From Segeticoccus rhizosphaerae (GTDB taxonomy: Bacteria > Actinomycetota > Actinomycetes > Actinomycetales > Dermatophilaceae), in assembly GCF_009192725.1 (NCBI RefSeq), contig NZ_VOHR01000008.1, positions 1-36,557 on the forward strand: a stretch of 36,557 nucleotides of DNA. Direction: 5' to 3'. The notes below the pieces were generated by a model, which ran no database searches, was not told the DNA's origin, and saw only the letters and a program-made list of their open reading frames with translations. Shown here one piece after another: positions 10,555 to 26,195 of the stretch (positions within the stretch are counted from its first letter, which is position 1; each line of letters opens with the position of its first letter). Both the position numbers and the translations under genes were made by a program.

Positions 10555-11879
10555 GCTCCTTCGCGGCGGAGTCGGTGCTGACTCGCTCGCCCGAGAGCCA
10601 ACGCCTCGAGCTGGCGACCGGACTCGGTGTCACGCCAACGGGGCTGGTAGAGAGCCCGGTGTTCTTCTCCGGCTTCCTGGACCGGCCTGATGTGGCCGCC
10701 TCCGGCCTGCTTGCCGTCGCGGACGTGGCCGCCAGTCGGTATGCCGACGCCGGACTGGCCGCGCGCCTCGCCTCGATGGACCCGGTCGTGACGGCCGGTG
10801 GAACCTGCCTGCGCTTCGAGTCGTTCTCGGCGTGCAACGGTGTGCACGCTCGGTTTGACCTGCTCCGCGAGGGATTGGGCGGCGGCGAGGTCGGCTTCGG
10901 CACGACGAACGTCGACATCAACCCTCCCCTGCGCAAGGCCCTGGCCAGGGTCAACCGGGCCGAGGCGATGCACCTGAGCGTCGGGCGGGACGAACTGCGC
11001 GCGTCGTCGCTGGCGGGCACGCATGTGGAACGCAAGGTCAACCTGCCGGAGCGGTGGGTCCGGGGCCTGGCGGAGGTGCCGGCGCTCACTGCGGCGATGA
11101 CGCGCGTCGCCGAGCTTCGCGGGCCGGCGATCGCGCGCTTCTTCTCGACCCTCCCGCGGGTCGCCCCGCCGGGGCCGTCGATGAACGTCCTGCCGATGCC
11201 CTCGGGGTGGCGCCTTGCGACCCGCGCGCTGCCGAAGTCCTTTCCGCTACCTGGTGTCTCGCGCCTCCGCGGTGCCGACCGAATCATCCGGCACGCCTCG
11301 CGTCTCGCGGTGTACGTCAACGTCAACGGCACCACGGCCTGGGTGTTCGACGTGCCGGGCGGCCGCTTCACCCTGGTGCTCAGCCCCGATCCCTTCCGGG
11401 GCTTCTCGGGCGAAGGCACCCTGCTCACGCTGCTCACCGACAGTGACGCAGAGTCGCACGGGCGACGAGTGCTCGCCGAGCTCGGCTGGACGCCGCTCGT
11501 CGACCCGAAGGACTTGGCCGAGCGCACCGGCCTGGGCCCCGGCAAGGTGGCTTCTGGCCTGGGCTGGCTCGCCGCCTGCGGGCGACTCGGCTACGACCTG
11601 ACGGAAGGCGCGTGGTTCCACCGCGAGTTGCCCATCGACAGCGACAAGGTCTTGCGCCGCAACCCCCGCCTTGCCTCGGCCCGCAAGCTATTGGAAAGTG
11701 GCTCTATCAGGGACGGCAGCGACGGCTGGAAGGTGGAGGGTAGCTACGGCAACCGCTACACGGTGACGAAGCAGTTGCGCTGCGACTGCGCCTGGGGCGT
11801 CGAGCACGACGGCAACCGTGGCCCCTGCAAGCACGTCTTGGCGGCCATCCTCACCTTCCGCGACTCGGGTTTGGACTGA
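10551..11879 (+). CDS. SWIM zinc-finger protein
   Basis: The 442-residue protein ends in a SWIM zinc finger of form CxCx(n)CxH: C411, C413, C426 and H428, within LRCDCAWGVEH and RGPCKHVLAAIL. SWIM domains bind DNA or proteins in transposases, SNF2 proteins and bacterial multi-subunit systems. The preceding 400 residues match no domain I can name. They contain a run reading VNVNGTTAWVFDVPGGRFTL and a winged-helix-like stretch before the finger (ELGWTPLVDPKDLAERTGLG). It is coupled by ATGA to the large upstream gene. The usual further partners of such pairs, a MoxR-type AAA ATPase and a stand-alone vWA protein, are missing here. The gene converges on the DUF1294 gene with an 11-base gap. The role is unknown. 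Confidence 0.85.
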   Translation: MSSFAAESVLTRSPESQRLELATGLGVTPTGLVESPVFFSGFLDRPDVAASGLLAVADVAASRYADAGLAARLASMDPVVTAGGTCLRFESFSACNGVHARFDLLREGLGGGEVGFGTTNVDINPPLRKALARVNRAEAMHLSVGRDELRASSLAGTHVERKVNLPERWVRGLAEVPALTAAMTRVAELRGPAIARFFSTLPRVAPPGPSMNVLPMPSGWRLATRALPKSFPLPGVSRLRGADRIIRHASRLAVYVNVNGTTAWVFDVPGGRFTLVLSPDPFRGFSGEGTLLTLLTDSDAESHGRRVLAELGWTPLVDPKDLAERTGLGPGKVASGLGWLAACGRLGYDLTEGAWFHRELPIDSDKVLRRNPRLASARKLLESGSIRDGSDGWKVEGSYGNRYTVTKQLRCDCAWGVEHDGNRGPCKHVLAAILTFRDSGLD

Positions 11880-12746: not shown

Positions 12747-13670
12747 TCAGAAGTTCGCGAACGAACTCATAACACGGATGGCGCCAGGACCAACGATCAC
12801 GATGAACATTGCCGGGAATACACAGAGAAGCATGGGGAACAGGATCTTGATCGGCACCTTTTGAGCCTTTTCCTCGGCACGCTGGCGTCGCACAAGCCGC
12901 ATCTGCAGGGCCTGTTCTCGCAACACTGCACCGATGGGCAGTCCGAGGCGGTCAGCCTGCACTAGGGAAGTCACGAACGTCTTGACTTCCGGCACACTCG
13001 TCCTCTGCGACATCGACTGGAAAGCTGCTCCGCGAGAGCGGCCGATCTGAATCTCCTGCAGAACACGCGAGAATTCACCAGCCACTGGACCGGTGACCGA
13101 CTTGGCGACCTGTTGCAACGCCCCATCGAAGGCTTGTCCTGCCTCAACACACACCGTGAGCATGTCCAGCGCGTCGGCCAGGCCGCGACGCAGCCCATCC
13201 TGTCGCTTGACCCCCGCGTTGTATATGAGTAGGTCAGGCAAGTAGAAGCCCACTGCACCAAGGCCCACCCCTGCAGCAACCCCGCCTAAGGTGAGGCCGC
13301 CAGCGAAGGTTAGCCCCAGCGCGCCAGAAATGATCAGCAGCGCGCCCTTGACGGCGAAGACCCGCTCGAGTGCCCAAGCTGGAGGGTTACCCGCAACATC
13401 GAGCATCTTCGTGAGTCGCTTTGCGGCGCCTCCTGGAGATAGCTTCGTGGCGAGTCGCCGCGTCATGCCGAAAAGAAATCCCTCTAAGCGATCTCCGAGC
13501 CCCAACTCATTGCGAGCGACCTCTTGCGTACGGAAGTCGTGTTGGATCAGGGCCAGGCTGCGAGCAACGCCTGTCGGCTGGGAAGTGGAACTCAGGAGGA
13601 TGACCAACGCCGCTCCGAGGCCCAGCAATACTGCTCCGCCACCGGTGTAGAGAAGAATTTGCGGACTCAT
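12747..13670 (-). CDS. tadC: Tad pilus inner-membrane platform protein TadC
   Basis: The 307-residue protein belongs to the GspF/TadC family of type II secretion and Tad platform proteins. It has an N-terminal membrane segment (about 6-25), two in the middle (about 100-145) and one at the C-terminus (about 280-300). The T2SF cytoplasmic domain lies between them, with the family pattern DALDMLTVCVEAGQAFDGAL, SRVLQEIQIGRSRG and FVTSLVQADRLGLPIG. With TadB it forms the membrane base that couples the TadA ATPase to pilin assembly. Start: the open frame extends to 13694, but ATG 13670 has GGAGGT (13676-13681 on plus) five bases upstream and begins one base after the tadB stop. It is the last gene of the operon. 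Confidence 0.92.
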   Translation of the reverse strand: MSPQILLYTGGGAVLLGLGAALVILLSSTSQPTGVARSLALIQHDFRTQEVARNELGLGDRLEGFLFGMTRRLATKLSPGGAAKRLTKMLDVAGNPPAWALERVFAVKGALLIISGALGLTFAGGLTLGGVAAGVGLGAVGFYLPDLLIYNAGVKRQDGLRRGLADALDMLTVCVEAGQAFDGALQQVAKSVTGPVAGEFSRVLQEIQIGRSRGAAFQSMSQRTSVPEVKTFVTSLVQADRLGLPIGAVLREQALQMRLVRRQRAEEKAQKVPIKILFPMLLCVFPAMFIVIVGPGAIRVMSSFANF

Positions 13671-13671
13671 C

Positions 13672-15660
13672 TCAGACCTCCACCTTGACGACACGGCTCA
13701 TCCAGAACATGCCAAACAGAAGAGACACGGTCCCGCCAGTGACCATCAACAAGCCCATACCCGTGGTCCACAAGAGCGAGATGTAGTCGCGGTTGACGAG
13801 AAGCATGTACAGGAGCAGACCAATGGGTAGCGCGACCAAGATGTATGCGGACAACCGTCCATCCGCCGACAACGCCCGGATCTGGCGGACGAGCGACTCC
13901 CGCTCTCGAATCGTCCCGGCCGTGGTGCGCAAGGTCTCGGCGAGGTTGCCACCCACCTGACGTTGGATCCGGATCGCCATCGTGGTCCATTCCAGGTTAG
14001 TGCTTCCCATCCGACTTGCCATCCGCTCGAGACTGTCCTCGAGGTCAGCTCCGATGCGAGTCTCTGCCAGAGCTCTTGAAAATTCCTTGGCGGACGGCTC
14101 AGCCGCGTCACGCGTCACGGCGTCGACCGCCTGCGCCAACGAGAATCCTGTCGACAAGCTACTGGCGATTAGCGTCAATACATCTGGCAGTTGGGTATCA
14201 AACTTGCTCGCCCGCCGTGCCGCCTTGAAACGTAGAAAGAACAGCGATGCCCCAAGCCCGACGACGATCGAGACCACAAGAGCAACCAAGCTGCCGATAA
14301 TCGAACTCCGCAAACCGAGCCAAGCCACCGTAAAGGTCACAATCACGGCAACGACCCGCAGCACGTACCACTCGCCCACCCGCAATGGCAGGTCGGCCCG
14401 TTCGAGCAGAACGGCCGTCTTGGCGCTGGAATCATGCCGCTTTGCCCAAGCGTCACTCACCCTGAGCACGCCGGCCGCGATGCCGCTAGTGCCAGACTTA
14501 GTTGCCTTGGTCTTCGCGTTGGCAACTGTGCCGACGTACTCGTCAAGAGATCGGATCCGGCGACGCGCTTCTGGGGTGAAGGCGGACCCGGTGGCGAGCA
14601 GCGACACTATCAAGAGACCGGCGAACACTGCACCAACTGCAACCCAGATCCACCCGGCCGACAGCCAGGGCGTTGCAGCCACCTTGGGTGCTGGGACGGC
14701 GGGTGCGACTTCAGCGACACTGGGCCGTGGGGCCGGCGATGTTACGGACGATGGGACCCTCGTCGACGGTGAGACGTGCGTTGCCACGCCTGCCGCGATG
14801 GGCGCACCATTGGCGCGGCCAGTGATGCGCAGTGCTTGGTTGCCAGAGACCCCAGGAGGCACCGTGACCTTCACTCGGACCTGCCCTGCGAGGGCCTTTG
14901 CGGCAGACGCGAAAGCCGCCCTGAGCGCTTTAGGGTCATCAGCCTGCACCAGGTGCCCCTGCGTGCCCTTGACGATAGTCCGGAGAGCCGCAAACTGGCT
15001 CTCGACGGTATGGAAGGCGACTGCCTCGGTCCGGATGCCATGGCTGGTGAGGACCTTGAGAGTCAACTTGGGGTTGGACTTGCTGACGGTGTCTCCGCCG
15101 TCGCTGAGCACGATGATTGTGCGACTTCCGTCTGGGCCCAGAGCCTTCGCGGCCCGCTGGAGGCCATCGTAGAGCGCCGTCTCGCCCTTTGCCTGCAGCG
15201 CGGGGAGAGCCTCAAGTACTGCACGCCGGTCGGTAGTGGGGCCAACGAGGACCTCGGGCTTATCAGCAAACGTCGCCAGCCCGACCCTAAGGTCGGAGGG
15301 GGCTTGCTTGAGGAAGGTCCGAGCTGCCTCTATGGCTGCGGCGATCCCGTCGCGCCCCATCGATCCACTGGTGTCGATCAGCAACACAGTCGAACGCCGC
15401 TCGTGCTGCACGCCCTCAACCGACACTGTTGCCTGCTTCCCTCCCACTGTCGCTCTGATGCTTCGAGGGTCGATGACAACCGTGTCCTCCCCTGCGGGCA
15501 CCGTCAACATTGCGGTGATGTGGCCTTCGTCCCCCTTGACGTCGCTCAGCGAAACGGGTTTGGGGGTAGTGGCACCATGGGCTGCCGGCGCGACCGTCAG
15601 GCACAACAACATGGTCAGAAGGCACAGGGCCAGGGCCCGCGCGCGTTGTTGGACACTCAC
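13672..15660 (-). CDS. tadB: Secreted vWA domain fused to TadB platform protein
   Basis: The 662-residue protein joins two modules. Residues 1-30 form a signal peptide ending AHGA. Residues about 88-260 are a von Willebrand A domain with a complete metal site: D96-T-S98-G-S100, T161 and D187 in VLSDGG. A Pro/Ala/Ser-rich stretch (about 295-330) leads to a membrane segment (335-357). The TadB part follows, with two close membrane segments (about 433-475), a T2SF domain (488-595, LPDVLTLIASSLSTGFSLAQ, then FSRALAETRIGADLEDSLER) and two C-terminal segments. The vWA domain would face outward, TadB sits in the membrane. GTG 15660 overlaps the tadA TGA (15657-15660). vWA domains bind proteins or surfaces via metal, so a pilus-base adhesion or docking role is possible (inference). 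Confidence 0.9.
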   Translation of the reverse strand: MSVQQRARALALCLLTMLLCLTVAPAAHGATTPKPVSLSDVKGDEGHITAMLTVPAGEDTVVIDPRSIRATVGGKQATVSVEGVQHERRSTVLLIDTSGSMGRDGIAAAIEAARTFLKQAPSDLRVGLATFADKPEVLVGPTTDRRAVLEALPALQAKGETALYDGLQRAAKALGPDGSRTIIVLSDGGDTVSKSNPKLTLKVLTSHGIRTEAVAFHTVESQFAALRTIVKGTQGHLVQADDPKALRAAFASAAKALAGQVRVKVTVPPGVSGNQALRITGRANGAPIAAGVATHVSPSTRVPSSVTSPAPRPSVAEVAPAVPAPKVAATPWLSAGWIWVAVGAVFAGLLIVSLLATGSAFTPEARRRIRSLDEYVGTVANAKTKATKSGTSGIAAGVLRVSDAWAKRHDSSAKTAVLLERADLPLRVGEWYVLRVVAVIVTFTVAWLGLRSSIIGSLVALVVSIVVGLGASLFFLRFKAARRASKFDTQLPDVLTLIASSLSTGFSLAQAVDAVTRDAAEPSAKEFSRALAETRIGADLEDSLERMASRMGSTNLEWTTMAIRIQRQVGGNLAETLRTTAGTIRERESLVRQIRALSADGRLSAYILVALPIGLLLYMLLVNRDYISLLWTTGMGLLMVTGGTVSLLFGMFWMSRVVKVEV

Positions 15661-17045
15661 GCCGGCTCCCGCAAGTCGCCTACGGCAAAAGCGCCGGCCG
15701 GCAATTGGATCCCAGCGTCGCTGAGTGCTTGAGCAAATTTCGGTCGGAGACCGGTGGACCGCAGCGAACCTCGTACGCGGCCCTGATCGTCCCGACCGGG
15801 AGAAAAGTCGAAGGTGAAGAGGTCTTGCAGCGTAATCACGTCACCCTCCATACCCACCACCTCCGTGATCGCCAGAACCCGGCGCGTTCCATCCTTGAGC
15901 CGGGTGAGCTGGACGATGAGGTCGACGGCGCTGGAGACCTGGTCACGAATGGCGCGAATCGGTAAATCAACCCCGGCCATCAAGACCATGGTTTCGAGTC
16001 GAGAAAGGCTGTCGCGTGGCGAGTTGGCGTGCACGGTGGTCAACGATCCGTCGTGGCCGGTGTTCATCGCCTGCAACATGTCGAGAGCGGCACCGTCCCG
16101 GACCTCCCCCACGACAATACGATCAGGTCGCATGCGGAGCGAGTTGCGCACGAGATCGCGAATCGCGATGCTGCCCTTGCCCTCGACGTTCGGCGGGCGC
16201 GATTCCATACGCAAGACGTGGCGTTGGCGCAATTGCAGTTCAGCGGCATCTTCGATAGTCACGATGCGCTCGTCGTCGGGAATGTAGCTGGACATGACAT
16301 TGAGGAACGTCGTCTTGCCAGAGCCGGTTCCCCCAGAGATGACGATGTTGAGCCGGCCGCGCACGCAGGCATCGAGCACATCACGGGCCTGAGTCGTCAT
16401 CGTGCCGAATGCGATCAGGTCGTTGTCGGTGAACGGATCAGCCGCGAACTTGCGGATGGTGAGAACGCTGCCGTCTAGGGCTATGGGAGCTATCACGGCA
16501 TTCACGCGCGAGCCGTCGGGAAGCCGCGCATCGACCATAGGCTGAGCCTCGTCGATGCGTCGACCCACCCTGGCCACGATCTTGTCAATGGTTCGCCTCA
16601 GGTGGGCATCGCTGGTAAAAGATGCGGCGACGGGATGGATCTTGCCAGCGCGTTCGATGTAGATCTGGTGCGGACCGTTGACCATGATCTCGGTGATCTC
16701 GCTGTCGCGCAATAGCGGCTCCAGAGGGCCGTGGCCGAGGATCTCGTCGGCCACCTCCTGGGCTATCCGGGTGCGGTCGGCGTTGGAAAGCGGCGTGTCC
16801 TCGGCCTCGAGGACCCCTTGCAATGTTACTCGAACCCGCTGCTCCAACTCGCTGCTTGCGAGGTGTGGATCATAAAGTTGCGGTCCGAGACTCTCGATGA
16901 GTCCCTCATGGACGCTGGCCTTGACCGCAGCGTACGGATCGACTGCCACGGCCGGCTCTTGGCTGCCAGCCGTGGCCGACGAGCCCGCAGTTGGAACGAC
17001 GGGCGAGCTGCGGCGTGCTTGTTCCAGGCGATCGGCGAGACTCAT
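15657..17045 (-). CDS. tadA: Tad pilus assembly ATPase TadA (CpaF family)
   Basis: The 462-residue secretion ATPase powers Flp pilus extension and, in this family, probably retraction. The N-terminal domain (about 90-200) contains [11 protein letters not shown] and [13 protein letters not shown]. The RecA-like domain has Walker A G238-G-T-G-S-G-K244-T-T, the Asp box VTIEDAAEL (262-270), an Arg-rich loop, Walker [11 protein letters not shown] (309-318) and the His box [13 protein letters not shown]. All catalytic residues are present. ATG 17045 overlaps the tadZ stop (ATGA) and its own stop overlaps the tadB start (GTGA), so tadZ-tadA-tadB should be made in fixed proportion. It acts as a hexamer at the cytoplasmic face below TadB/TadC. 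Confidence 0.96.
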
Positions 17046-18253
17046 GCCTGGCTCCCAGCCTCGGCGCGGCGCAGGAAACGGCGTCCGTTGGCCCGGTGAG
17101 CAGCCTTGCTCACCGGCATCGGGGACTCGACCGCCATCTTTATAGCGGGACGCAGTCGCTCGCGGACCAGCGCCTTGAGTGCGAGGCTGACTGGGTTCTT
17201 CGGCTCGTGCAGCACGACGGGCACGCCGCGGTTCGTGGCGGCGGTGACGGCACGGTTGTCCGGGATCTCCTGAGCCAGCTCGTGATGCAAGGCGGTGGTG
17301 ACATCATCAACCGAAAGCCCGACCTTCGCGTCTGCTCTGTTGAGCACGAGCAAACGGTTAGCCTTCGGGTGTCCCAGTAGGTCGAGGGTATCGAGGGCGA
17401 GCCGCAGGTTCTTGACCGCGGGAATGTCGAGCGTCGCCAACAGAACCGAGGCGTCGCAGGCGTCGAAGCTGGTCAAGACGTGCTCTGTGAAGGCTGGCGG
17501 CGTGTCAATGACAACGACGTCATAGACCTTTTTGGCAACACGAAGAACCTCGGCGACAACGGCGGCTGGGATGCGGTCTGCGTCGCCCGGGTGAGCCGGA
17601 GCACAAAGCGCGTCTAGCCCCGAGTCGTGGTGCGTGACCACGGAGGCCAAGCCCTCAGCGTCCAGGTGGCCAGCCATCGCGACGACGTCTGCGATCGAGC
17701 GCTCCGGCATCAGGCCGAGCGAGATCGCCACATCGCCGAATGCAAGATCGAGGTCGATCAGCAGCACGCGGGTGGTGCGGTCCAAAGCGAGCTCAGCAGC
17801 CATGTTGGTTGAGACCGTGGTCTTGCCGCAGCCCCCCTTGGCCGAGAAGACGGTGACGATGCGGCCCTCCGCCGCCTCAGATCCCCCTGCCAGCCCGGCC
17901 AGCCTTGTCGAGAGTTGCTGGCTGCGAGAGCAGGCCTCGGTAAGGCTACTAAGGTCATCGGCACTCACGACCTCTCGAACACCCGCCCGCAGCGATTGGG
18001 CAAGGACACCGACGTCAAGCCTCCGACGCATCAGCACCACGCCTACTTCAGGCCGTTCGAGTCGTAGCGAGTCCGCCACGGTGAGCGCAGACGTCAGATC
18101 GATATCCGGTCCAATGACCAGCAGTATCTCGCGGCGATCATCGGCGAGACTGCGGTGTGCAGCGGGCGCAGACTCGACGACACGCATGCCGTGTCCCAGC
18201 GCCAACCGGAGGTTCTCGGCTGCCTGGTGGTCGGTTTCCCAAAGGAAGGTCAT
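17042..18253 (-). CDS. tadZ: Tad pilus localisation ATPase TadZ/CpaE
   Basis: The 403-residue protein has an atypical receiver-like N-terminal domain (about 1-115) and a ParA/MinD-type ATPase domain. The deviant Walker A reads FSAKGGCGKTTVSTN (about 136-150), followed by LLIDLDLAFGDVA and VVVIDTPPAF. TadZ/CpaE places the Tad machine in the cell, usually at a pole. The receiver-like part lacks a clear phospho-acceptor pocket, as is usual for TadZ. The C-terminus (after about 370) is basic and may touch membrane phospholipid or DNA. ATG 18253 lies seven bases after the cpaB stop, and its own stop overlaps the tadA start. Confidence 0.93.
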   Translation of the reverse strand: MTFLWETDHQAAENLRLALGHGMRVVESAPAAHRSLADDRREILLVIGPDIDLTSALTVADSLRLERPEVGVVLMRRRLDVGVLAQSLRAGVREVVSADDLSSLTEACSRSQQLSTRLAGLAGGSEAAEGRIVTVFSAKGGCGKTTVSTNMAAELALDRTTRVLLIDLDLAFGDVAISLGLMPERSIADVVAMAGHLDAEGLASVVTHHDSGLDALCAPAHPGDADRIPAAVVAEVLRVAKKVYDVVVIDTPPAFTEHVLTSFDACDASVLLATLDIPAVKNLRLALDTLDLLGHPKANRLLVLNRADAKVGLSVDDVTTALHHELAQEIPDNRAVTAATNRGVPVVLHEPKNPVSLALKALVRERLRPAIKMAVESPMPVSKAAHRANGRRFLRRAEAGSQA

Positions 18254-18260
18254 GACTGTC

Positions 18261-19079
18261 TCACTTTCCGAGGACGGTGTTGTCGTTGACGTCCGTCGCG
18301 GTGTCCGGCTTGGCGTCCTTGCCGAGCAGGCCGGCGTAGAGCGTGCCGGTCTGGATGCCGTGTACCAGGCGGAGGGAGTCCTTTGGAGAGACTGCCACGG
18401 TCACCAATGCCTGCAGCTCGTCATCTGGAGTCGTGCCGGCGCTTTTGTCCTTACCTTCGGTGGCGGTAGGTGCCGGAGCAGGAGCGCCTTCCCGGGTGGT
18501 GCCGACTGCGATGACTTTGACGCCGGTCAGCAGGATGCGGGTGGCGTGCAGGTACTCGGGCTTGTCCGCCAAGTGCTCTCCATTGGGCGTCAACTTGTCA
18601 GCCTTGGGGTCGTGAGCATTGAAGGTGTCGTAGATGACGATCTGAGATCCAGGCTTGAGCAGAGGCGCGATCCGCTGAGGGTCCGAGAGGCTCACCGTGA
18701 TCGCCACCATGCCCTTGGGCACCAGCGGCAAGGTGACCTTCTTCGTCGCCTTGGCAGTACCGAAGCGATCGGTGAGCACGACTTCACCAATCTGTATATC
18801 GGACTCGGCGACCAATGAGCGCGTTGCTGGCTCGACGCTCGTCATCGCGCCGTCGGGCACGCCCTTGGCTACAACCTGTTCCGGCACGATGAAGGCGCCG
18901 TCGACTGCCTTGGCCAACGTGGTGCCCTCCGGCACCGCCTTCTTGGCGATGTAGACAGTGGAGACCTCTTGGCCGGCCACCGCCCGCTTGTCGGCAGACT
19001 GAGCATAAGCCACGACGGCTCCCGCTCCCACCACCGCCACGACCAGGGCGATCACGATCGCCACCACTCGACGCTTCAT
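18261..19079 (-). CDS. cpaB: Flp pilus assembly protein CpaB/RcpC
   Basis: The 272-residue protein has one N-terminal membrane anchor (residues 4-27), then a SAF domain (about 40-105: VYIAKKAVPEGTTL, PATRSLVAESDIQIGEVV) and a RcpC-type beta-rich domain (about 115-260: VTVSLSDPQRIAPLLKPGSQ). In Gram-negative Tad systems this protein helps the outer-membrane secretin. Actinobacteria have no such secretin, so here it probably works at the wall-facing side of the machine, perhaps binding peptidoglycan or glycan through the SAF domain (inference). A Pro/Ala/Thr-rich loop (about 200-222) interrupts the second domain. Start ATG 19079 has GAGGA six bases upstream. Confidence 0.88.
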   Translation of the reverse strand: MKRRVVAIVIALVVAVVGAGAVVAYAQSADKRAVAGQEVSTVYIAKKAVPEGTTLAKAVDGAFIVPEQVVAKGVPDGAMTSVEPATRSLVAESDIQIGEVVLTDRFGTAKATKKVTLPLVPKGMVAITVSLSDPQRIAPLLKPGSQIVIYDTFNAHDPKADKLTPNGEHLADKPEYLHATRILLTGVKVIAVGTTREGAPAPAPTATEGKDKSAGTTPDDELQALVTVAVSPKDSLRLVHGIQTGTLYAGLLGKDAKPDTATDVNDNTVLGK

Positions 19080-19088
19080 GTCAGTTCC

Positions 19089-20216
19089 TCATCCCGCCAT
19101 CTGAATAACCGTGGCACCCAGGTTTGGTGTGCCGGGGGGGCCAATCACGGTGCCAGTCGGCACCAAATCCTTCAGGAAATATCCGTAGAGACAGTTTCCG
19201 CCCTTGGCCTGGCATGCTGCTTTCGCTGCAGCTGTCGGATATCCCGGGAGGTTCGCCTTAAGCTGACCCGTGACATCGACGGCCGTAATGAAGAAGGCTG
19301 CCAAACCAAGGATGTGGTAGTTGGCGTTGCTACCGTTAGCCGTGTTGTCACACAGGACCTTTAAATTCGACTGACAGTCGTACACCGGCACGTATGCAAC
19401 CTGTCCGACGGTAGCTTTTATAGAGTCGCTGCAGCCGCTCGGCGGGCTTACACCGGTCGACACGCTGACCCAGCCATTGGCGTCGACCTTGCTCTGACAG
19501 TTGGGTGTTGGGGCGAGCCAGCCGAAACCACCAGGTTGGTCATGACCATTGAAGCTGCACGGCGCGTCGTTGCTACCGTTGAGTTCGATCGCGATCTCTG
19601 CCGTGGGGTAGGTGGCGCCACTTCCGGTGGCGTCACGCCATTCACACGCGGAGAGAGTAAACGGCAGAGTCGAAATGAAATTCGCCGGCGGTCCCCAGGC
19701 AGCGGCTGCACAGGCCTGGTGGAAAGTGCCGGTTGAGCTGCCGGTCAATGACTGGGCGAAGATTGAGGGAAGGAGGGTGTCGCCAACGGGAGTACGGGTG
19801 TAGACGCGGACGAAGTTGGAATCCGCTGGCAGGTTGGCGTCTGGGCAGTTCTGCAGTAGTTTCGATGCCACGGTGCCGCAAGATGGGAGGGTGTTGTTGG
19901 GATCGTGACCACAGACAGCTGGCCCACCGTCGCTCCGTGCCAGTGCGGTATTGGTGTCGCTGTTGTCGTTGGCGTCGGCGAGGTTCTTGAGGTCGGGACT
20001 TGAATCGCTAGGGCAGGCATTGGTCTTCGCGCATTGCAGCGCAGCGGCCAAGGCACCAGCGTCGGCGCCGTTTTGCAATTGACGTCGCTCGTGAGACATG
20101 GCGCCGACGTCGACCGTGAGGGCGGCCATCCCGAGCAAGGAGCCCATACCGAGCACCACGGCCACGATTAGGGCAACAGCCCCGCGCTCGCGGTCCCGGC
20201 TTGCGAAGGGCTTCAT
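19089..20216 (-). CDS. TadG-like Cys-rich pilus-associated protein
   Basis: The 375-residue protein starts with a basic stretch and one long hydrophobic segment (GAVALIVAVVLGMGSLLGMA) followed by DVGAMSHERRQLQNGADAGALAAA, the typical TadG/TadE-like (Flp pseudopilin) N-terminus. The outside part holds 14 cysteines, an even number that suits disulfide bonding, and is rich in Asn, Thr, Ser and Gly. Start: the frame extends to GTG 20225, but ATG 20216 overlaps the tadE TGA (20213-20216) and has GAGGTG six bases upstream. TadG is thought to be a minor, surface-exposed part needed for pilus assembly or adhesion. I see no vWA domain, which other TadG proteins have; in this operon vWA is on TadB. Confidence 0.8.
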   Translation of the reverse strand: MKPFASRDRERGAVALIVAVVLGMGSLLGMAALTVDVGAMSHERRQLQNGADAGALAAALQCAKTNACPSDSSPDLKNLADANDNSDTNTALARSDGGPAVCGHDPNNTLPSCGTVASKLLQNCPDANLPADSNFVRVYTRTPVGDTLLPSIFAQSLTGSSTGTFHQACAAAAWGPPANFISTLPFTLSACEWRDATGSGATYPTAEIAIELNGSNDAPCSFNGHDQPGGFGWLAPTPNCQSKVDANGWVSVSTGVSPPSGCSDSIKATVGQVAYVPVYDCQSNLKVLCDNTANGSNANYHILGLAAFFITAVDVTGQLKANLPGYPTAAAKAACQAKGGNCLYGYFLKDLVPTGTVIGPPGTPNLGATVIQMAG

Positions 20217-20605
20217 CCTTGACACCTCATCGTCGCCGTCTGGGGGTAATTGCGGTCAATGCCGGGAATCCAGCCGACCAGGATCAGACCAGTCGGGTGC
20301 CAACCGACCGTCACTTCTGCAGAGTCGTTCGGCAAGGGAGCTGCCGGGCACGCCCGAGTCACGGCAACGGTCATACTGGAAAGCCCTGGGGCAGCTGCGT
20401 GCGCTCTCGTGGAGACATCGCCCGGAAAGCCGAGCGACTCCATGCGGACTCCCTCGCGGGCCGCTTGACTGAGTTGGATTTGAGCCGTGTAGATGCGGCC
20501 GAAGTCGATGATGCCGAAGAGCAGGACAATCAGGAGTGGCAGCACGAGAGCCATCTCAACCGCGGCTGCGCCGCGGTCGTGACCTTCTCTGCGTCGGCGT
20601 CTCAT
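20213..20605 (-). CDS. tadE: TadE-family minor pilin (pseudopilin)
   Basis: The 130-residue protein shows the TadE pattern: a basic, Arg-rich leader, then GAAAVEMALVLPLLIVLLFG and IIDFGRIYTAQIQLSQAAREG. The Glu after the GAAAV segment matches the processing region of Flp-like pilins (cleavage after the Gly). The C-terminal part has two cysteines (TRACPAAP and the end TMRCQG) that could pair. ATG 20605 has AGGAG seven bases upstream. Two stable hairpins lie between it and the upstream pilin genes. It overlaps the tadG-like gene by four bases, so both minor pilins are likely made together. Confidence 0.88.
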   Translation of the reverse strand: MRRRRREGHDRGAAAVEMALVLPLLIVLLFGIIDFGRIYTAQIQLSQAAREGVRMESLGFPGDVSTRAHAAAPGLSSMTVAVTRACPAAPLPNDSAEVTVGWHPTGLILVGWIPGIDRNYPQTATMRCQG

Positions 20606-20638
20606 GGCCGGGCTCCTGGTGGTGTGTTGAGGAATACC

Positions 20639-20657
20639 TGCGCTGATAACCAGCGCA
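20639..20657 (-). other. Small RNA hairpin in the flp2-tadE gap
   Basis: A perfect seven-base-pair stem (20639-20645 with 20651-20657) with a five-base loop lies just downstream, in the direction of transcription, of the larger hairpin at 20665-20701. Together they fill most of the space between the pilin genes and tadE, with the tadE ribosome-binding site following after about 20 bases. Confidence 0.55.
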
Positions 20658-20660
20658 AGA

Positions 20661-20707
20661 GCCGGTCCGGCGGCGCCCGCGAAAGAGGAACGCCGCCGGA
20701 CTTCGGC
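20661..20707 (-). terminator. Large hairpin after the pilin genes (partial terminator or RNA stabiliser)
   Basis: An 11-base-pair perfect stem (20665-20675 with 20691-20701, arm GTCCGGCGGCG, 15-base loop) is extended by four more pairs (20661-20664 with 20704-20707) across a two-base bulge. It starts right after the flp2 stop. Such a structure can end most transcripts or protect the 3' end of the pilin message, giving much more pilin than assembly protein. No T-tract follows. Confidence 0.6.
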
Positions 20708-20869
20708 CTAGAACGGTGGGACCGAGGCGAAAAGCCCTTGGACCCTGATGCCGACAACAGTCACCATTGCGATGATCATGCCAGCGATGAGGCCGGCCAT
20801 GAGCGCGTACTCCACGGCCGTGGCACCACGGTCGCCGTGCCGGCTGACCGTGGAGTACCGCTGGATCAC
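20708..20869 (-). CDS. Second Flp-family pilin, 53 residues
   Basis: A short frame from GTG 20869 to TAG at 20708 encodes 53 residues. A short basic leader ends HGDRG, followed by the pilin core ATAVEYALMAGLIAG and a hydrophobic helix, finishing VQGLFASVPPF. Predicted cleavage is after G15; E20 (+5) and Y21 (+6) of the mature protein are the conserved Flp Glu-Tyr pair. The GTG overlaps the TGA of the first pilin gene (GTGA 20866-20869), so synthesis is coupled. The N-terminal half is like the first pilin, but the C-terminus differs. It could be an alternative or minor pilin. It is under 60 codons and easily missed by gene callers. Confidence 0.85.
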   Translation of the reverse strand: MIQRYSTVSRHGDRGATAVEYALMAGLIAGMIIAMVTVVGIRVQGLFASVPPF

Positions 20870-21057
20870 GGCAGGTTGGTGTTGACGAGGTTGAACGCGC
20901 CCAGGATCTTCTGGCCAACTGCCGCGACGACGACGATGATGATGGCCGCGATGAGCGCGACCATGATGCCGTACTCCACCGCAGTGGCGCCGCGGTCCTT
21001 CTTGTCCTGGAGGAGGTGGAAGGCGCGGGTCTGGAGCTTGACGAGTGCAGAGGTCAT
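20866..21057 (-). CDS. flp: Flp-family major pilin
   Basis: The 63-residue pilin has leader MTSALVKLQTRAFHLLQDKK, then processing site DRG/ATAVEYGIM with cleavage after G23, E28 (+5) and Y29 (+6), a 20-residue hydrophobic helix and tail GQKILGAFNLVNTNLP. It is the first gene of the Tad operon and probably the main pilus subunit. Start: the open frame runs further upstream, but ATG 21057 is preceded by AAAGGGG about eight bases away and gives the normal pilin length. A small CCCTT/AAGGG hairpin overlaps that ribosome-binding site. The processing peptidase (TadV/CpaA) is not encoded in this window. Confidence 0.9.
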   Translation of the reverse strand: MTSALVKLQTRAFHLLQDKKDRGATAVEYGIMVALIAAIIIVVVAAVGQKILGAFNLVNTNLP

Positions 21058-21191
21058 GTCGAATCCCCTTTCAAGGGCTTGGGTGGTGCGGCCCGGGAGG
21101 TGGTCCGCGACATCACCTAGATTGCCCGGCGCGAGGTCCACGCACCATCGGCTGTTCCGCCCCTTTGTGGCTGCCTCTTCGGACGACAATG

Positions 21192-21215
21192 GGGGTCATC
21201 CGAACGGATGACCCC
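21192..21215 (-). terminator. Hairpin terminator overlapping the comF stop
   Basis: A perfect 11-base-pair stem (21192-21202 with 21205-21215, arm GGGGTCATCCG, two-base AA turn) spans the last codons and stop of comF. It would end mtrA-mtrB-lpqB-comF transcription just before the flp promoter region (21058-21191), insulating the pilus operon from the mtr block. Confidence 0.65.
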
Positions 21216-21990
21216 GACGCCTCTGGGTGGCCGCCACGGTGGCCCCTACCACGTGCCCTGCGCCGGCCTCACGAAGCGCTCTGGCCGCTTCGGTCAGGGT
21301 CGCCCCCGTCGTCAACACGTCGTCGACCAGCACACACGCCGAGCCCCCCGGGCAGCCGGCCCAACGAGCCCGCACGGCCATCGCGCGGTCGAGGTTGGCG
21401 GCGCGTTCGACGCTGTCCAGCCCGGCTTGATCCGCTACCCGCCGGGTCAGCCGAAGACATCTTGCCACATATATCGACCTGTGATCGAACGGGCTTGAGC
21501 CCCTGACCTGAATTTCGCGAATCGCCTTGCCCAACAATATATTCAGCGGGACGTCGCCGCGACTACGGACCGCTTGGGGTGAAGACGGCGCCGGCACCAA
21601 CCACACCGGCCGGCCCGCTTGCAACGCCGCCGCCACAACCACATCCTCCGCGAGCGCAGCCTGCAGAGCAGCCGCGAGCAGGGGCGCGAGGACGTGCACC
21701 AGATCGCGCCGGTCACCGTCCTTGAAGGCGACCAGCGCGCCTCGGAAAGGCCCGGCATACGGTCCACTCGCCCACACGGGCGGACAGCCCTGCGGCATCG
21801 GATCGGGTCGCGCCGGCCGCGGCCAGCCGGCGCTCCCGTCCCGCAGCTGAGCCTCGCACTCGTCACACCACGGACGACCGGGCGACCCGCAACCACCGCA
21901 GCTCGACGGCAGGGCTAGACCGGCCAGCTCGCCCAGGCAGCGTCGCAGCAGCCCGCGCTGGTCCCGAGGAACAAGGTCGGACGTAGCCAT
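21196..21990 (-). CDS. comF: ComF-family phosphoribosyltransferase-like protein
   Basis: The 264-residue protein has an N-terminal zinc-ribbon-like motif with C31, C34, C42 and C45 (SSCGGCG ... WCDEC). A type I phosphoribosyltransferase fold follows, with the PRPP-binding loop LVDDVLTTGATLTEAA (about 221-236). ComF proteins assist DNA uptake in competent bacteria, but in actinobacteria this gene is a fixed neighbour of lpqB and hpf and its role there is not settled. Residues PVWLVPAPSSPQAVRSRGDVPL match the typical central ComF segment. ATG 21990 lies 92 bases after the lpqB stop, with a CGAGGCGCCTCG palindrome in between. Confidence 0.88.
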   Translation of the reverse strand: MATSDLVPRDQRGLLRRCLGELAGLALPSSCGGCGSPGRPWCDECEAQLRDGSAGWPRPARPDPMPQGCPPVWASGPYAGPFRGALVAFKDGDRRDLVHVLAPLLAAALQAALAEDVVVAAALQAGRPVWLVPAPSSPQAVRSRGDVPLNILLGKAIREIQVRGSSPFDHRSIYVARCLRLTRRVADQAGLDSVERAANLDRAMAVRARWAGCPGGSACVLVDDVLTTGATLTEAARALREAGAGHVVGATVAATQRRRGHPFG

Positions 21991-22082
21991 GCCGCCACGA
22001 TGTCACTGCATCCGGAGCCCCGGGAACGAGCGAGGCGCCTCGTGGATCAAGGCCGTTCGCAGAAGAGGGGTGTGGAGGGAAC

Positions 22083-23840
22083 TCAGGAACCCGGGACGAC
22101 GATGTCGGTGCCGGGACCGTATTCGGGCCAGCTCGCACCCGCCCGGGTGAGGACCTTGTCGCGGTCGGTCACGACCAGCAGGCCCTGCGAGCCGCCCTGG
22201 CCGGTGGCCGTGATGGAGCGCGCGCCCTCGACCGGGTTGAGCGGGGTGAGCTGGCCGCCGATGTCGATGACGAAGGGACGGATCCGCTCCCTGGTGGAGG
22301 TGCGCCCCAGCACCGCCACCGACCGGTCCGACACCCAGACCACGTCGGTCACGGAGATCAAGGTGGAGCCGATCCGCTTGGGCGGGGTGAGCCCGACTGG
22401 GTTGCCATGGCGGTCACGCTTCACCGCGGTGATCGCGACCTGGTCGCGGTCGGTCTTCGGGTCGTGCAGGACGATCACGGCGCGCTGGTCGGTGCGGGAC
22501 ATCCGGAAGTCGATGATCTGCCGGTCGCCGAGCCACGGCACCGCCACCTCCTCCGGCAACGCATCGGCCATCGTCGTGATCGTGTTGATAACCCACAGAC
22601 GGCTGCGTCCCCCTGCCTGGCCGGCGACCCAGAGGCCGTTTTGGCTGCCGAAGCTCGGCTCGGTCAGGTCGGTGGCGAAGCGGGGCACCATGTGGAAGGT
22701 CTCGCCCTCCCACCGGCCCAGGTCCTTGTGGTCACCGCCGATCGCCGCGAGCTGGTCGCCGCTGGGTGATGCCGCGAGCCCGATCCACCCGATGGGCACC
22801 TGCGGCAGCTCGGGCGCGGACTTGGGGTGCACCGGCGGCAGGTCGATCCGGGTCGCGTCCACCCGAGTGAGCTCGGTGCCGGAGCGCAGCAACGCCGGCT
22901 GGTCCACCGGCGCCGTGAGGCCATAGCCCACATCGCTCGGATCGGTGGGGCTGTGCGAGAGGCCTTGCACCTCGAGCGGCGCGTCGTCCACCCGGATGGT
23001 CAACCGGCGCACCGAGGGCGACTGGTCCAGCGTGGTCAGGAACTGCGCCCACATCATCTTGCGATGCTCGACGTCGGCGTCTCGCGCGCGCGCGTTGAGG
23101 TCGAGGGTGGCCGTGCCGTCCTCGATGGCCACGGCGTCGACGGCCATCGACGCGCCGGACGGCACGCCGGTCTCGACCGCACCCCGCAGGTAGGCCGGCA
23201 CCGGCTCGAGCTGCGCGCGCGCCAGGCTCGTGGCAAGGCCGGGTCCGGTGGGGAACCACCGCACATCCGGGACCATCGCGCGGGTCTTCGGGTCGATGTA
23301 GTTGACGCCGAACGCCTGGTAGAGCCGCTCGAAGTCGAGCGCGCTCACCCACAGCCCGAAGCCTTTCGGCAGGGCAGAGATGCGCCACTGGCCTTCGACC
23401 TTCTGGAGGGTGAACCTCGCCGAGCGGTGCGCGCTGGCGGACAGGTCGGTGTAGTAGCCCTGTGAGTTGACCGTCGCCACAGCCTTCACCCCTACCGTCA
23501 CGTGGTCGGGCGGCTGGTGCTTCACGGTGAAGTTGGTCTCGCCGGTGTGGACGACGACCTTGCGCTCGGGCACCCACTTCTCCGCGAGGCGGGCGGTGAG
23601 AAACTGCCGCGCCACCTCGTGGTCGTTCTCGAAGCCAGCACCCGCGCGGAGGAAGCCCCTGACGATGTCGTTCTGCGAGGCGCCGGCACGGGGTCCGTCG
23701 TAGTCGATGCGGAACGGTTCCCCCGGCCCGGGGCCGAGGGCCAGACCAGGCTTGACCTCGCTCTCGGAGGGCAGGCCAGCGCAGGCCGTGAGCGTCATCA
23801 ACAGCGCGAGCACGGCCGCCAGCAGGGTCCGCCGTCTCAC
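22083..23840 (-). CDS. lpqB: Lipoprotein LpqB, partner of MtrAB
   Basis: The 585-residue lipoprotein begins at GTG 23840, which overlaps the mtrB TGA (23837-23840). The frame is open further upstream, but only this start puts a lipoprotein signal in place: basic VRRR, a hydrophobic core and lipobox LTAC with Cys20. A GerMN domain follows (about 180-310, with VPAYLRGAVETGVPSG and VDAVAIEDGTATLDLNARA), then a beta-propeller-like C-terminal part. In mycobacteria and streptomycetes LpqB binds the outer part of MtrB and tunes MtrAB signalling in cell division and wall homeostasis. The gene order mtrA-mtrB-lpqB confirms the assignment. Confidence 0.93.
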   Translation of the reverse strand: MRRRTLLAAVLALLMTLTACAGLPSESEVKPGLALGPGPGEPFRIDYDGPRAGASQNDIVRGFLRAGAGFENDHEVARQFLTARLAEKWVPERKVVVHTGETNFTVKHQPPDHVTVGVKAVATVNSQGYYTDLSASAHRSARFTLQKVEGQWRISALPKGFGLWVSALDFERLYQAFGVNYIDPKTRAMVPDVRWFPTGPGLATSLARAQLEPVPAYLRGAVETGVPSGASMAVDAVAIEDGTATLDLNARARDADVEHRKMMWAQFLTTLDQSPSVRRLTIRVDDAPLEVQGLSHSPTDPSDVGYGLTAPVDQPALLRSGTELTRVDATRIDLPPVHPKSAPELPQVPIGWIGLAASPSGDQLAAIGGDHKDLGRWEGETFHMVPRFATDLTEPSFGSQNGLWVAGQAGGRSRLWVINTITTMADALPEEVAVPWLGDRQIIDFRMSRTDQRAVIVLHDPKTDRDQVAITAVKRDRHGNPVGLTPPKRIGSTLISVTDVVWVSDRSVAVLGRTSTRERIRPFVIDIGGQLTPLNPVEGARSITATGQGGSQGLLVVTDRDKVLTRAGASWPEYGPGTDIVVPGS

Positions 23841-25513
23841 GACGTCGACCGATCCATCGGCAGCGGGGATTGGCCGATCGGCACACCGGGCTTGGTCGGC
23901 AGGGTCAGCCGGAAGCACGAGCCCTCACCCGGCTCGCCCCACGCCTGCAGCCAGCCCTGATGCAGTCGGGCGTCCTCGAGGGAAATCGAGAGTCCGAGAC
24001 CGGTGCCACCCGTGGTCCGGGCGCGGGCGGGGTCGGCACGCCAGAAGCGGTTGAAGACCAGGCCGGCCTCACCCGGTCGCAACCCCACTCCTCGGTCGCG
24101 CACCATGACTGCGGCTGCGGTCCCGTTGACCCCCACGGTGACCGTCACGGGCCGACCTTCTCCGTGCTCGATCGCGTTGACCACGAGGTTGCGCAGGATG
24201 CGCTCGATCCGCCGGGAGTCGACCTGCGCCATACATGGTTGTTGGGGAGCCACAATCTGCAGCTCGCTGCCACGCCGGGCGGCGAGGTGCTGCGCGGCCT
24301 CGACAGTCCGCGCCACCGAGTCGCGCAGGTCGGTGTCCTCGAGGTCCAGGGCTGCCGCTCCGGCGTCGAACCGGCTGATCTCGAGCAGGTCGGCCAGCAG
24401 GGCCTCAAAACGGTCCAGCTCGTCGTGCAGCAGCTCGGCCGAGCGGGACACCGACGGCTCGAAGTCGGCTCGTGCCGCGTGGAGCAGGTCGACGGCCATC
24501 CGGATCGTCGTCAGCGGGGTGCGCAGCTCGTGCGACACGTCGGAAACGAAGCGCTGCTGCACCGCGGAGAGGTCCTTGAGCTGGCGGATCTGCGACTGGA
24601 GGCTGTCGGCCATCGCGTTGAACGAGGTCGCCAGCCGGGCCAGGTCGTCCTCCCCCCGCACCTTCATCCGTTCGTCGAGCGCGCCGGAGGTCAGCCGCTC
24701 GGAGACGTGGGCGGCGCGGCGGACCGGCTCGACTGCGAGCCGAGTGACCATCCAGGCCACCGCGCCGACCAGCAGGATCAGCGCGACGCCACCGAGGTTG
24801 AAGGTGCGCTGGACCACGGCGAGGGTGGCCTCTTCGCTCTCCATGGGGAACACGAAATACAGGTCGTAGTCCCCGGCGGTCGGGATGTCGACGCGTGACC
24901 CGACCAGCACGGCGGGGACCATCCGGTTCTGCTGGTCCTTCACGGTGATGATCTTGACCGCTTGGTGGGTGCTGTTCCTGGCGAGCTGGTTGCGCGCGTC
25001 CTGCGGGATGCTGGGCAGCCCGATGTTGCCGCTGCCGCCGGAGATCACGGTCGGCACGATGACATTGCGCTGGTTGGTGATCGCGCGGGTGAGGATGACC
25101 TCGCGCGAGTTGTCCTCGCCCGGGGAGGCGCTGGACTGCACGATGTCACCGGCCAGGCTCTTGAGGCTGTCACGGTCGGTGCGATCCGCTCCGGTGAACT
25201 TGGCCTGTGCGGAGCGGGTCTGCTGCGCCGCCTCCTGCTGGGCGGAAGAGATCCGCGCCTGCACGAGGCCGTCGGCGATCCGCTGGTAGAGATAGGAGCC
25301 GAGCAACAGCGCCATGACCGTGCCCAGGAGCATGGTCAGCAGGACCACCCGCAGCTGCAGCGACGAGCGCCAGAGCCGGGTGAGCCAGTGCAAGAAGGCG
25401 AGTGCTCCTCGCCGTAGCGCCGCGAGGAGCCGCTCGAGGTCCTGGACTATCGGAGCCTTGGGGTCCTTGCGCTGCGTCGTCTCAGCCTCCGCGGGCGGGC
25501 TGATCTGGACCAT
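23837..25513 (-). CDS. mtrB: Sensor histidine kinase MtrB
   Basis: The 558-residue kinase has a cytoplasmic start, a first membrane segment (about 53-76), a large extracellular sensor domain (about 80-235), a second segment (about 240-258) and a HAMP domain. The DHp helix VSDVSHELRTPLTTI carries phospho-acceptor H328. An intact HATPase follows with N-box LRNLVVNAIEHG, D-box VRDRGVGL and G-box GGTGLGLSIS. It phosphorylates MtrA to couple division and cell-wall hydrolase expression. Start: ATG 25513 (MVQISPP), four bases after the mtrA stop, is preferred over the extension to 25549 that would run into mtrA. Confidence 0.95.
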   Translation of the reverse strand: MVQISPPAEAETTQRKDPKAPIVQDLERLLAALRRGALAFLHWLTRLWRSSLQLRVVLLTMLLGTVMALLLGSYLYQRIADGLVQARISSAQQEAAQQTRSAQAKFTGADRTDRDSLKSLAGDIVQSSASPGEDNSREVILTRAITNQRNVIVPTVISGGSGNIGLPSIPQDARNQLARNSTHQAVKIITVKDQQNRMVPAVLVGSRVDIPTAGDYDLYFVFPMESEEATLAVVQRTFNLGGVALILLVGAVAWMVTRLAVEPVRRAAHVSERLTSGALDERMKVRGEDDLARLATSFNAMADSLQSQIRQLKDLSAVQQRFVSDVSHELRTPLTTIRMAVDLLHAARADFEPSVSRSAELLHDELDRFEALLADLLEISRFDAGAAALDLEDTDLRDSVARTVEAAQHLAARRGSELQIVAPQQPCMAQVDSRRIERILRNLVVNAIEHGEGRPVTVTVGVNGTAAAVMVRDRGVGLRPGEAGLVFNRFWRADPARARTTGGTGLGLSISLEDARLHQGWLQAWGEPGEGSCFRLTLPTKPGVPIGQSPLPMDRSTS

Positions 25514-25517
25514 CGCC

Positions 25518-26195
25518 CTAGGCCGGGCCCGCCCTGTAGCCGACGCCACGCACGGTCACGACGATCTCGGGGTGCTCGGGGTCGCGCTCGATCTTGGAGC
25601 GCAGCCGCTGCACGTGCACGTTGACCAGCCGGGTGTCGCCGGCGTGGCGGTAGCCCCACACCTGCTCGAGCAGGATCTCCCGGGTGAAGACCTGCCACGG
25701 CTTGCGCGCCAGCGCCACCAGCAGGTCGAACTCGAGGGGGGTGAGCGAGAGCGGCTTGCCGTCGCGCTTGACGGAGTGTCCGGCCACGTCGATGACCAGG
25801 TCGCCGACCTCCAGCCGCTCGGGCTCGGGCTCGTCGGTGCGCCGCAGACGCGCCCGCACCCGCGCAATGAGCTCCTGCGGCTTGAACGGCTTGAGTACGT
25901 AGTCGTCGGCACCGGCCTCCAGGCCCACCACGACGTCCACCGTGTCGGTGCGGGCGGTGAGCATCACGATCGGGACACCGGACTCGGCCCGCAGACGCCG
26001 GCAGACCTCGATCCCGTCGAGGCCGGGCAGCATGACGTCGAGCAGCACGAGATCGGGCTTGGCCTCGTGGAACGCCTCCACCGCAGTGCCCCCCTCTGCG
26101 CAGTGCGTCACCTCGAGGCCCTCGTTGCGCAGCACGATGCCCAGCATCTCTGCCAGTGCGAGGTCGTCGTCGACGACGAGCACGCTTCCCTTCAC
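25518..26195 (-). CDS. mtrA: OmpR-family response regulator MtrA
   Basis: The 225-residue regulator has an intact receiver domain (D9-D10-D11, phospho-acceptor D53 in LVLLDVMLPGLDG, T in VMLTART, K in YVLKPF) and an OmpR/PhoB winged helix (TPLEFDLLVALARKPWQVFT, RLVNVHVQRLRSKIE, VRGVGYRAG). MtrA is the essential or near-essential actinobacterial regulator of cell division, wall hydrolases and, in some species, dnaA. Start: the open frame extends to 26258, but GTG 26195 with AAGGA upstream gives the usual family length. It is the first gene of mtrA-mtrB-lpqB-comF; the 209 bases upstream are shared with a divergent membrane-protein gene. Confidence 0.96.
   Translation of the reverse strand: MKGSVLVVDDDLALAEMLGIVLRNEGLEVTHCAEGGTAVEAFHEAKPDLVLLDVMLPGLDGIEVCRRLRAESGVPIVMLTARTDTVDVVVGLEAGADDYVLKPFKPQELIARVRARLRRTDEPEPERLEVGDLVIDVAGHSVKRDGKPLSLTPLEFDLLVALARKPWQVFTREILLEQVWGYRHAGDTRLVNVHVQRLRSKIERDPEHPEIVVTVRGVGYRAGPA

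Follow-up and report, generated by a model that had tools for sequence, protein, structure and literature searches.

Additional flp genes beside the main one have been described in other systems. Flp2 appears as minor in Table 1 of PMC3244431, H. ducreyi carries flp1-flp2-flp3 (PMC3201912), and predation by Bdellovibrio depends on flp1, flp2 and flp4 individually, none of which can stand in for another (PMC5430801), according to the available extracts of these papers. The locus described here likewise has an extra flp gene beside the main gene, and those extracts do not mention an overlap or a hairpin at the start of a second flp. Since extra flp genes are already known, the second pilin of this locus (pilin 2) is in itself ordinary. 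Flp pilins are 50–80 aa in size, and M. luteus, which has a single Flp of typical size, forms Flp pili, TadE and TadF being unseen when these are sheared off (available text of PMC4322843). Not every Flp system therefore requires a second Flp. The solved Flp chains 8u1k (PilA) and 8u2b/8ucr (Flp family type IVb pilin) resemble pilin 2 in having the G/XXXXEY site and about 40 residues in the mature pilin. Pilin 2 matches these chains only weakly in sequence (E 0.017 and 0.019), and it carries Ala at residue 7 (Ala7) whereas both solved chains carry Gly (Gly7).

The best precedent for the proposed role of pilin 2 is found in KilK and KilO of Myxococcus, likened here by description and not by sequence. 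These are small, all-helix Flp pilins with very low transcription that serve as adapters between the tip complexes and the filament and are needed to start polymerisation, and TadEFG is proposed to form such tips elsewhere (PMC12075869, in the portion available). Pilin 2 is also a small Flp with a leader and a cleavage motif, whereas the minor role and the weak transcription are those of KilK and KilO. The kilK gene is located in kil cluster II and kilO in a tip gene cluster, and an overlap with the major pilin gene is not mentioned in that portion of the paper.

Translational coupling at short overlaps is the subject of three papers (PMC10666635, PMC12548453 and PMC6728339), according to whose accessible parts re-initiation needs overlaps or very short gaps and falls steeply with distance (PMC10666635), and predicted structure directly after the upstream stop reduces coupling (PMC12548453). 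The present locus resembles these coupled genes in its 4-base overlap, missing Shine-Dalgarno site and structure at the start, but is unlike the cases in those parts in that the structure is the downstream gene's own leader and motif coding sequence.

The tandem Flp genes of the window

The window is the whole 36,557-nucleotide stretch of Segeticoccus rhizosphaerae DNA that was analysed. Its tad cluster is encoded on the minus strand and is headed by two Flp prepilin genes, as follows.

21065..21071, minus strand: AAAGGGG, Shine-Dalgarno-like site of pilin 1 (upstream sequence)
20866..21057, minus strand: pilin 1, Flp prepilin of the Gly7 kind, 63 aa, ATG start (PF04964, 45.9 bits; class test -4.62)
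20866..20869, minus strand: GTGA overlap of the pilin 2 start and the pilin 1 stop, TGA (sequence)
20708..20869, minus strand: pilin 2, Flp prepilin of the Ala7 kind, GTG start (PF04964, 40.5 bits; class test +4.29)
20802..20862, minus strand: stem-loop in the 5' coding part of pilin 2 (inverted repeat, fold and synonymous-codon null)
20665..20701, minus strand: stem-loop just 3' of the pilin 2 stop, perfect 11-nt arms (inverted repeat; region 20600-20712, z -5.0)
20640..20656, minus strand: small hairpin between this stem-loop and tadE (fold)
20213..20605, minus strand: tadE (PF07811, 66.3 bits)
19089..20225, minus strand: TadE/TadG-like gene with a Tad domain (PF13400, 33.7 bits)
18261..19079, minus strand: CpaB/RcpC (PF16976; TIGR03177 below its cut-off)
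17042..18253, minus strand: CpaE/TadZ-like ATPase (PF13614; TIGR03815 below its cut-off)
15657..17045, minus strand: CpaF/TadA motor ATPase (PF00437, 220.4 bits)
13672..15660, minus strand: TadB-like protein whose frame also encodes a VWA domain (PF13519 and PF00482)
12747..13694, minus strand: TadC-like protein (PF00482)

Pilin 2 is a 53-aa open reading frame running from 20869 to 20708, with the GTG at 20869 as the earliest start codon in its open frame. The prepilin begins with a leader of 15 residues, MIQRYSTVSRHGDRG, which is followed by a mature part of 38 residues, ATAVEYALMAGLIAGMIIAMVTVVGIRVQGLFASVPPF. The Gly/Ala cleavage site and the Glu+5/Tyr+6 pair, both read in the initial annotation, are present (the residues after the leader are ATAVEY), and with the charged leader they make up the G/XXXXEY prepilin site. 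The match to PF04964 (Flp_Fap) has an E-value of 2.4e-10 and lies above the curated cut-off of 32.2 bits, so pilin 2 is not a chance ORF. Its length fits the Flp/Fap size of 50–80 aa and its hydrophobic stretch the usual span of about 20 residues, its frame has the highest codon score of the six (GC3 0.83), and its genomic setting, with TadA, TadB/C, TadE and CpaB as neighbours, is that of a tad locus. An NCBIfam search gave no match for pilin 1 or pilin 2. Pilin 2 is confirmed as a genuine Flp prepilin gene, the second in a tandem pair heading the tad cluster, and pilin 1 is probably the major pilin. Within the host genome (4.44 Mb, 761 contigs) these two are the only Flp genes over the PF04964 cut-off, and a single A24 prepilin peptidase is encoded on another contig.

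Two earlier statements about pilin 2 require correction. It had been described as differing from pilin 1 after the hydrophobic helix, but the differences run throughout, with 50% identity over the first 36 mature residues. It had also been described as hidden below normal gene-size limits and missing from many annotations, which is overstated: among eight plasmid records with a similar pilin, four annotate it as 'Flp family type IVb pilin', three have no feature (from a gene table that describes itself as incomplete) and one is an unannotated record. Common gene finders accept ORFs as small as pilin 2.

Several other features of the window were recorded alongside the pilins. The frame at 13672-15660 (minus strand) joins T2SSF and von Willebrand A domains in 662 residues, and a VWA domain on a TadB-like protein was unexpected. 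Upstream of the tad cluster, ComF-like, LpqB and MtrB genes occupy 21196-25549 (minus strand). On the plus strand, two frames (7441-10554 and 10551-11879) overlap by ATGA beside a two-component pair; neither has a Pfam or NCBIfam match, and the C-terminal Cys/His pattern of the second is one that we take to resemble a SWIM zinc finger.

Gly7 and Ala7 pilins in related tad clusters

A PF04964 search of 97 genomes, among which the genome of the window is the sole member of its genus, matched 35, including the window's own. From 32 of the 34 others, 38 regions were fetched, the weak matches of G004 and G010 being left out. The Flp filter used here required the motif and a mature part of at most 90 residues, and it kept no Flp in L097, L102 and L106 despite their Pfam matches, one of which is above the cut-off. 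Two or three Flp genes in a row were found in 21 of 38 sets, window included, a count in which some genomes give two sets and in which a copy truncated where its contig stops (L092) and an artefactual frame (the second of L071) are kept as set members. Gly7 and Ala7 pilins occur together in 10 of these 21 tandem sets, the window among them, with Gly7 first in eight. Tandem Flp genes are common in relatives, and a second pilin is often carried beside the main one. Further loci came from a class-wide sample (93 of 344 genomes matched; 34 regions fetched, only those with neighbouring matches) and from the genus of G234, where 172 of 215 genomes matched the pilin 2 of locus L131 and 30 loci and 20 further regions were obtained. 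The 97-genome and class-wide loci were recruited by the Pfam model and those of the G234 genus by the L131 pilin 2; loci L033-L068 were recruited by the sequence of pilin 2, and Ala7 pilins are over-represented there.

The two kinds can be told apart beyond the residue that names them. A leave-one-locus-out profile test with residue 7 masked, run on 60 pilins from 27 distinct mixed sets (degenerate copies included), assigned 55 correctly and five in error. Pilin 1 scored on the Gly7 side, and pilin 2, with a modest score, on the Ala7 side, with which its sequence is thus predicted to belong even when residue 7 is masked. That the frame encodes a second Flp pilin, as first proposed, is upheld by the PF04964 match, by the tandem Flp genes of relatives and by this test. 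Over 26 sets (the L071 set dropped), the mean pairwise identity is 0.53 for Ala7 pilins versus 0.70 for Gly7 pilins, and of 325 genome pairs, 300 show higher conservation of the Gly7 pilin and 13 of the Ala7 pilin, with 12 ties. In 37 of the 38 Ala7 pairs above 68% identity pN is below pS; these pairs come from loci other than the window, with some counting one genome twice and some lying within one genome. The sole exception is formed by two contigs of one assembly with zero synonymous changes. Judged by these comparisons of sequence, Ala7 pilins diverge faster yet stay constrained.

A tree of 122 mature pilins over 37 columns contains 24 label changes versus 38.5 for shuffled labels, so the labels cluster, and the end branch of pilin 2 in it is long (1.27). 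The Ala7 pilins were also considered as one old lineage, and this was set aside; the tree, in which 37 columns give little resolution, shows no single clade, and Ala7 pilins are for this reason termed a kind and not a lineage. Of 128 adjacent Flp pairs, 71 combine two Gly7 pilins, so residue 7 is only a rough guide to role. Some relatives carry near-identical Flp pairs, for example L079 and L072. Separately, in two Nocardioides loci (L033 and L068) the main pilin and the Ala7 pilin are separated by damaged additional Flp copies that keep an intact motif but have lost the helix part, which suggests that Flp genes are copied and lost in these clusters.

Hairpins after Flp genes and within the start of pilin 2

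The GTG of pilin 2 overlaps the stop of pilin 1, as the initial annotation had noted; the two share GTGA, and the resulting spacing of -4 is within the overlap or very short gap of coupled pairs. A Shine-Dalgarno site was looked for upstream of the GTG and not found. The 60 bases after the pilin 1 stop, which are the start of pilin 2, fold at -36.8 kcal/mol (z -4.4), with perfect 11-nt arms pairing 20848-20858 in the leader with 20807-20817 in the Val-Glu-Tyr codons; the predicted fold of 20800-20880 is -42.7 kcal/mol. In a synonymous-codon null, with the protein fixed and synonymous codons drawn according to their usage in nine genes of the window, the start region was equally stable in 6, 12, 0 and 4 of 1000 draws for four stretches, and in 1 of 500 in a repeat. 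Opening the ribosome site is predicted to cost 19.3 kcal/mol for pilin 2 versus 11.1 for pilin 1, and 16.5 kcal/mol for the tadE start, which is nearly as high as pilin 2. The features of pilin 2 that bear, indirectly, on its expression are the lack of a Shine-Dalgarno site, the start hairpin and the high opening energy. The 60 bases after the pilin 2 stop are also structured (z -3.2), and with the stem-loop at 20665-20701 both pilins of the window are followed by structure, as they are in the relative L038. The stem-loop and small hairpin at 20640-20701 (minus strand), in the gap between pilin 2 and tadE, may be a second dose step between pilins and machinery. No T-run terminator was found between 20200 and 21400.

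Across the mixed sets, the folding of the 60-base stretch 3' of every pilin stop was compared with that of dinucleotide-shuffled versions. In 25 of 27 sets, window included, the Gly7 pilin is followed by a stronger hairpin than the Ala7 pilin, in a comparison whose downstream stretches mix intergenic and coding sequence without matching for coding content; identical sets were removed beforehand, as were the degenerate middle copies in L071, L033 and L068. Repeats on new mixed sets gave a stronger Gly7-side hairpin in 9 of 10 (after dropping the already-seen L112 set) and in 7 of 9 (after dropping already-counted or cut-short stretches). The exception among the ten is L131, where the hairpin after the Ala7 pilin is the stronger of the two. 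The Gly7 side is also the stronger in all eight sets in which the Ala7 gene is first (L046, L048, L062, L066, L084, L087, L109 and L110), by a negligible margin in L066. A z-score below -2.5 was reached at 17 of 46 Gly7 stops of the Pfam-recruited sets versus 1 of 115 stops of other tad genes, and the Gly7 hairpin is strong by this threshold in 18 of the 27 mixed sets and not in nine. No Gly7 stem-loop is present (z 0.5) in L088, whose pilin 1 is the nearest to that of the window (67%). Strong hairpins also follow Ala7 stops, in 2 of 10 Pfam-recruited, 8 of 39 pilin-2-recruited and 4 of 13 new cases. Among 31 sets with Gly7 pilins only, the first-pilin hairpin is stronger than the last-pilin one in 21. 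Whichever gene comes first, the stem-loop thus tends to accompany the Gly7 pilin, and such a tendency towards one pilin kind is new here. One open library of literature was searched, and neither a stem-loop tied to one pilin kind nor its reuse as coding sequence was found described there; no such layout was recognised in it for a stem-loop or terminator in an flp/tad operon, or for overlapping or hairpin-bearing pilin genes.

The overlap itself is rare. A start overlapping the previous stop occurs in 3 of 128 distinct adjacent Flp pairs, namely the window and L131 with GTG at -4 and L166 with ATG at -1. The proposal of a subunit whose dose is controlled by coupling is supported at this locus by the GTGA, the missing Shine-Dalgarno site and the start hairpin, but with overlaps so rare coupling is not the general rule. 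In 13 pairs the cleavage codon of the second gene is no more than 75 bases from the stop of the first, comprising three Gly7-Ala7 pairs (window, L131 and L173) and ten Gly7-Gly7 pairs. With the codon usage of the window applied to the other loci in place of their own, equally stable starts arose in 1, 3 and 0 of 500 synonymous draws for the window, L131 and L173, and the lowest counts among the ten Gly7-Gly7 pairs were 15 and 19 of 500. Locus L131 (G234:C1:2810000-2815000), from another family, has a GTGA overlap of a Gly7/Ala7 pair with a hairpin in the leader codons, and L173 has an embedded hairpin and no overlap, starting at +7 or +25. The stems of the three loci differ in sequence. At these three Gly7-Ala7 loci, where the spacer has shrunk, the hairpin lies inside the leader codons of the minor pilin. 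Tentatively, and with some doubt, the guard or end stem-loop of the main pilin message may have been reused here as coding sequence, such that the leader of the overlapping minor pilin is complementary to the invariant codons for cleavage and Val-Glu-Tyr in the same gene, which would thus carry its own dose limiter, an arrangement that would have arisen more than once (window, L131 and L173).

Role and dose of pilin 2

Pilin 2 is a known kind of pilin with an unusual expression layout. By a slight balance of probability, it is a low-dose minor Flp subunit, probably an adapter joining a TadE/TadG-like tip to the pilin 1 filament. We infer the adapter role, the low dose and the coupling from the layout and the precedents given above. 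Pilin 1 would build the filament, and pilin 2 would be needed in few copies, with its helix in the filament and a link to the TadE/TadG-like tip; tadE and then the TadE/TadG-like gene sit downstream of pilin 2. In many relatives the low dose of the minor pilin could come from its lying outside the stem-loop of the main-pilin message. In the window the spacer would have been lost, so that pilin 2 begins on the pilin 1 stop and the stem-loop falls within its leader and motif codons. Given this start position, the missing Shine-Dalgarno site and the start stem-loop, most synthesis of pilin 2 would come from ribosomes re-starting, at low efficiency, after completing pilin 1. Its standing as a minor subunit, one of the original suggestions, is favoured indirectly by the faster divergence of the Ala7 kind and by the stem-loop accompanying the Gly7 pilin. 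A place at the very tip, suggested along with it, is possible, though an adapter just below the tip fits the precedent better, as far as the available text of PMC12075869 goes.

The hairpin might instead serve pilin 1 only, as a message end or stabiliser, with no effect on pilin 2. Its occurrence with the Gly7 pilin in both gene orders, including all eight Ala7-first sets (L066 negligibly), would be expected on this account, which we regard as somewhat unlikely because the hairpin still lies at the pilin 2 start, where the opening cost is high. Another account makes pilin 2 a second building block of the shaft, which either co-polymerises with pilin 1 or alternates with it by condition. The intact helix and Glu5/Tyr6 of pilin 2, the near-identical pairs of relatives such as L079 and L072, and the fact that no more than 21 of the 31 Gly7-only sets have their stronger hairpin behind the first pilin all agree with a shaft role. 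It is nevertheless unlikely, since pilin 2 is only 50% identical to pilin 1 and of a distinct kind, the Ala7 kind diverges faster, and pilin 2 has no ribosome site and a hairpin over its start.

Pilin 2 could also be a decaying duplicate that drifts, its overlap and hairpin having come from a deletion that merged an old spacer stem-loop with the gene. The long end branch and the rarity of overlap among adjacent Flp pairs lend this some weight, as does the fact that the 97 genomes hold no same-genus relative to show constraint. Decay is improbable, however, in a gene that keeps its motif residues and full hydrophobic helix, scores above the Pfam cut-off and has the top codon score of six in its own frame; Ala7 pilins elsewhere are constrained, and L131 and L173 have an embedded hairpin with an open pilin frame. 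A chance ORF, for which the shortness, the GTG start and the lack of a Shine-Dalgarno site could be cited, is refuted by the Pfam match and has a negligible probability in view of the operon context and the kind shared with relatives.

A Tad pilus can be expected to require many copies of its main pilin but few of its tip parts. PapA/PapH is a parallel case, mentioned as background and not used as evidence. The overlapped layout of the window would be a compact example in which re-initiation through a hairpin sets the ratio of two subunits, and the Gly7-linked stem-loop offers a sequence mark for main versus minor Flp pilins in Actinomycetota.
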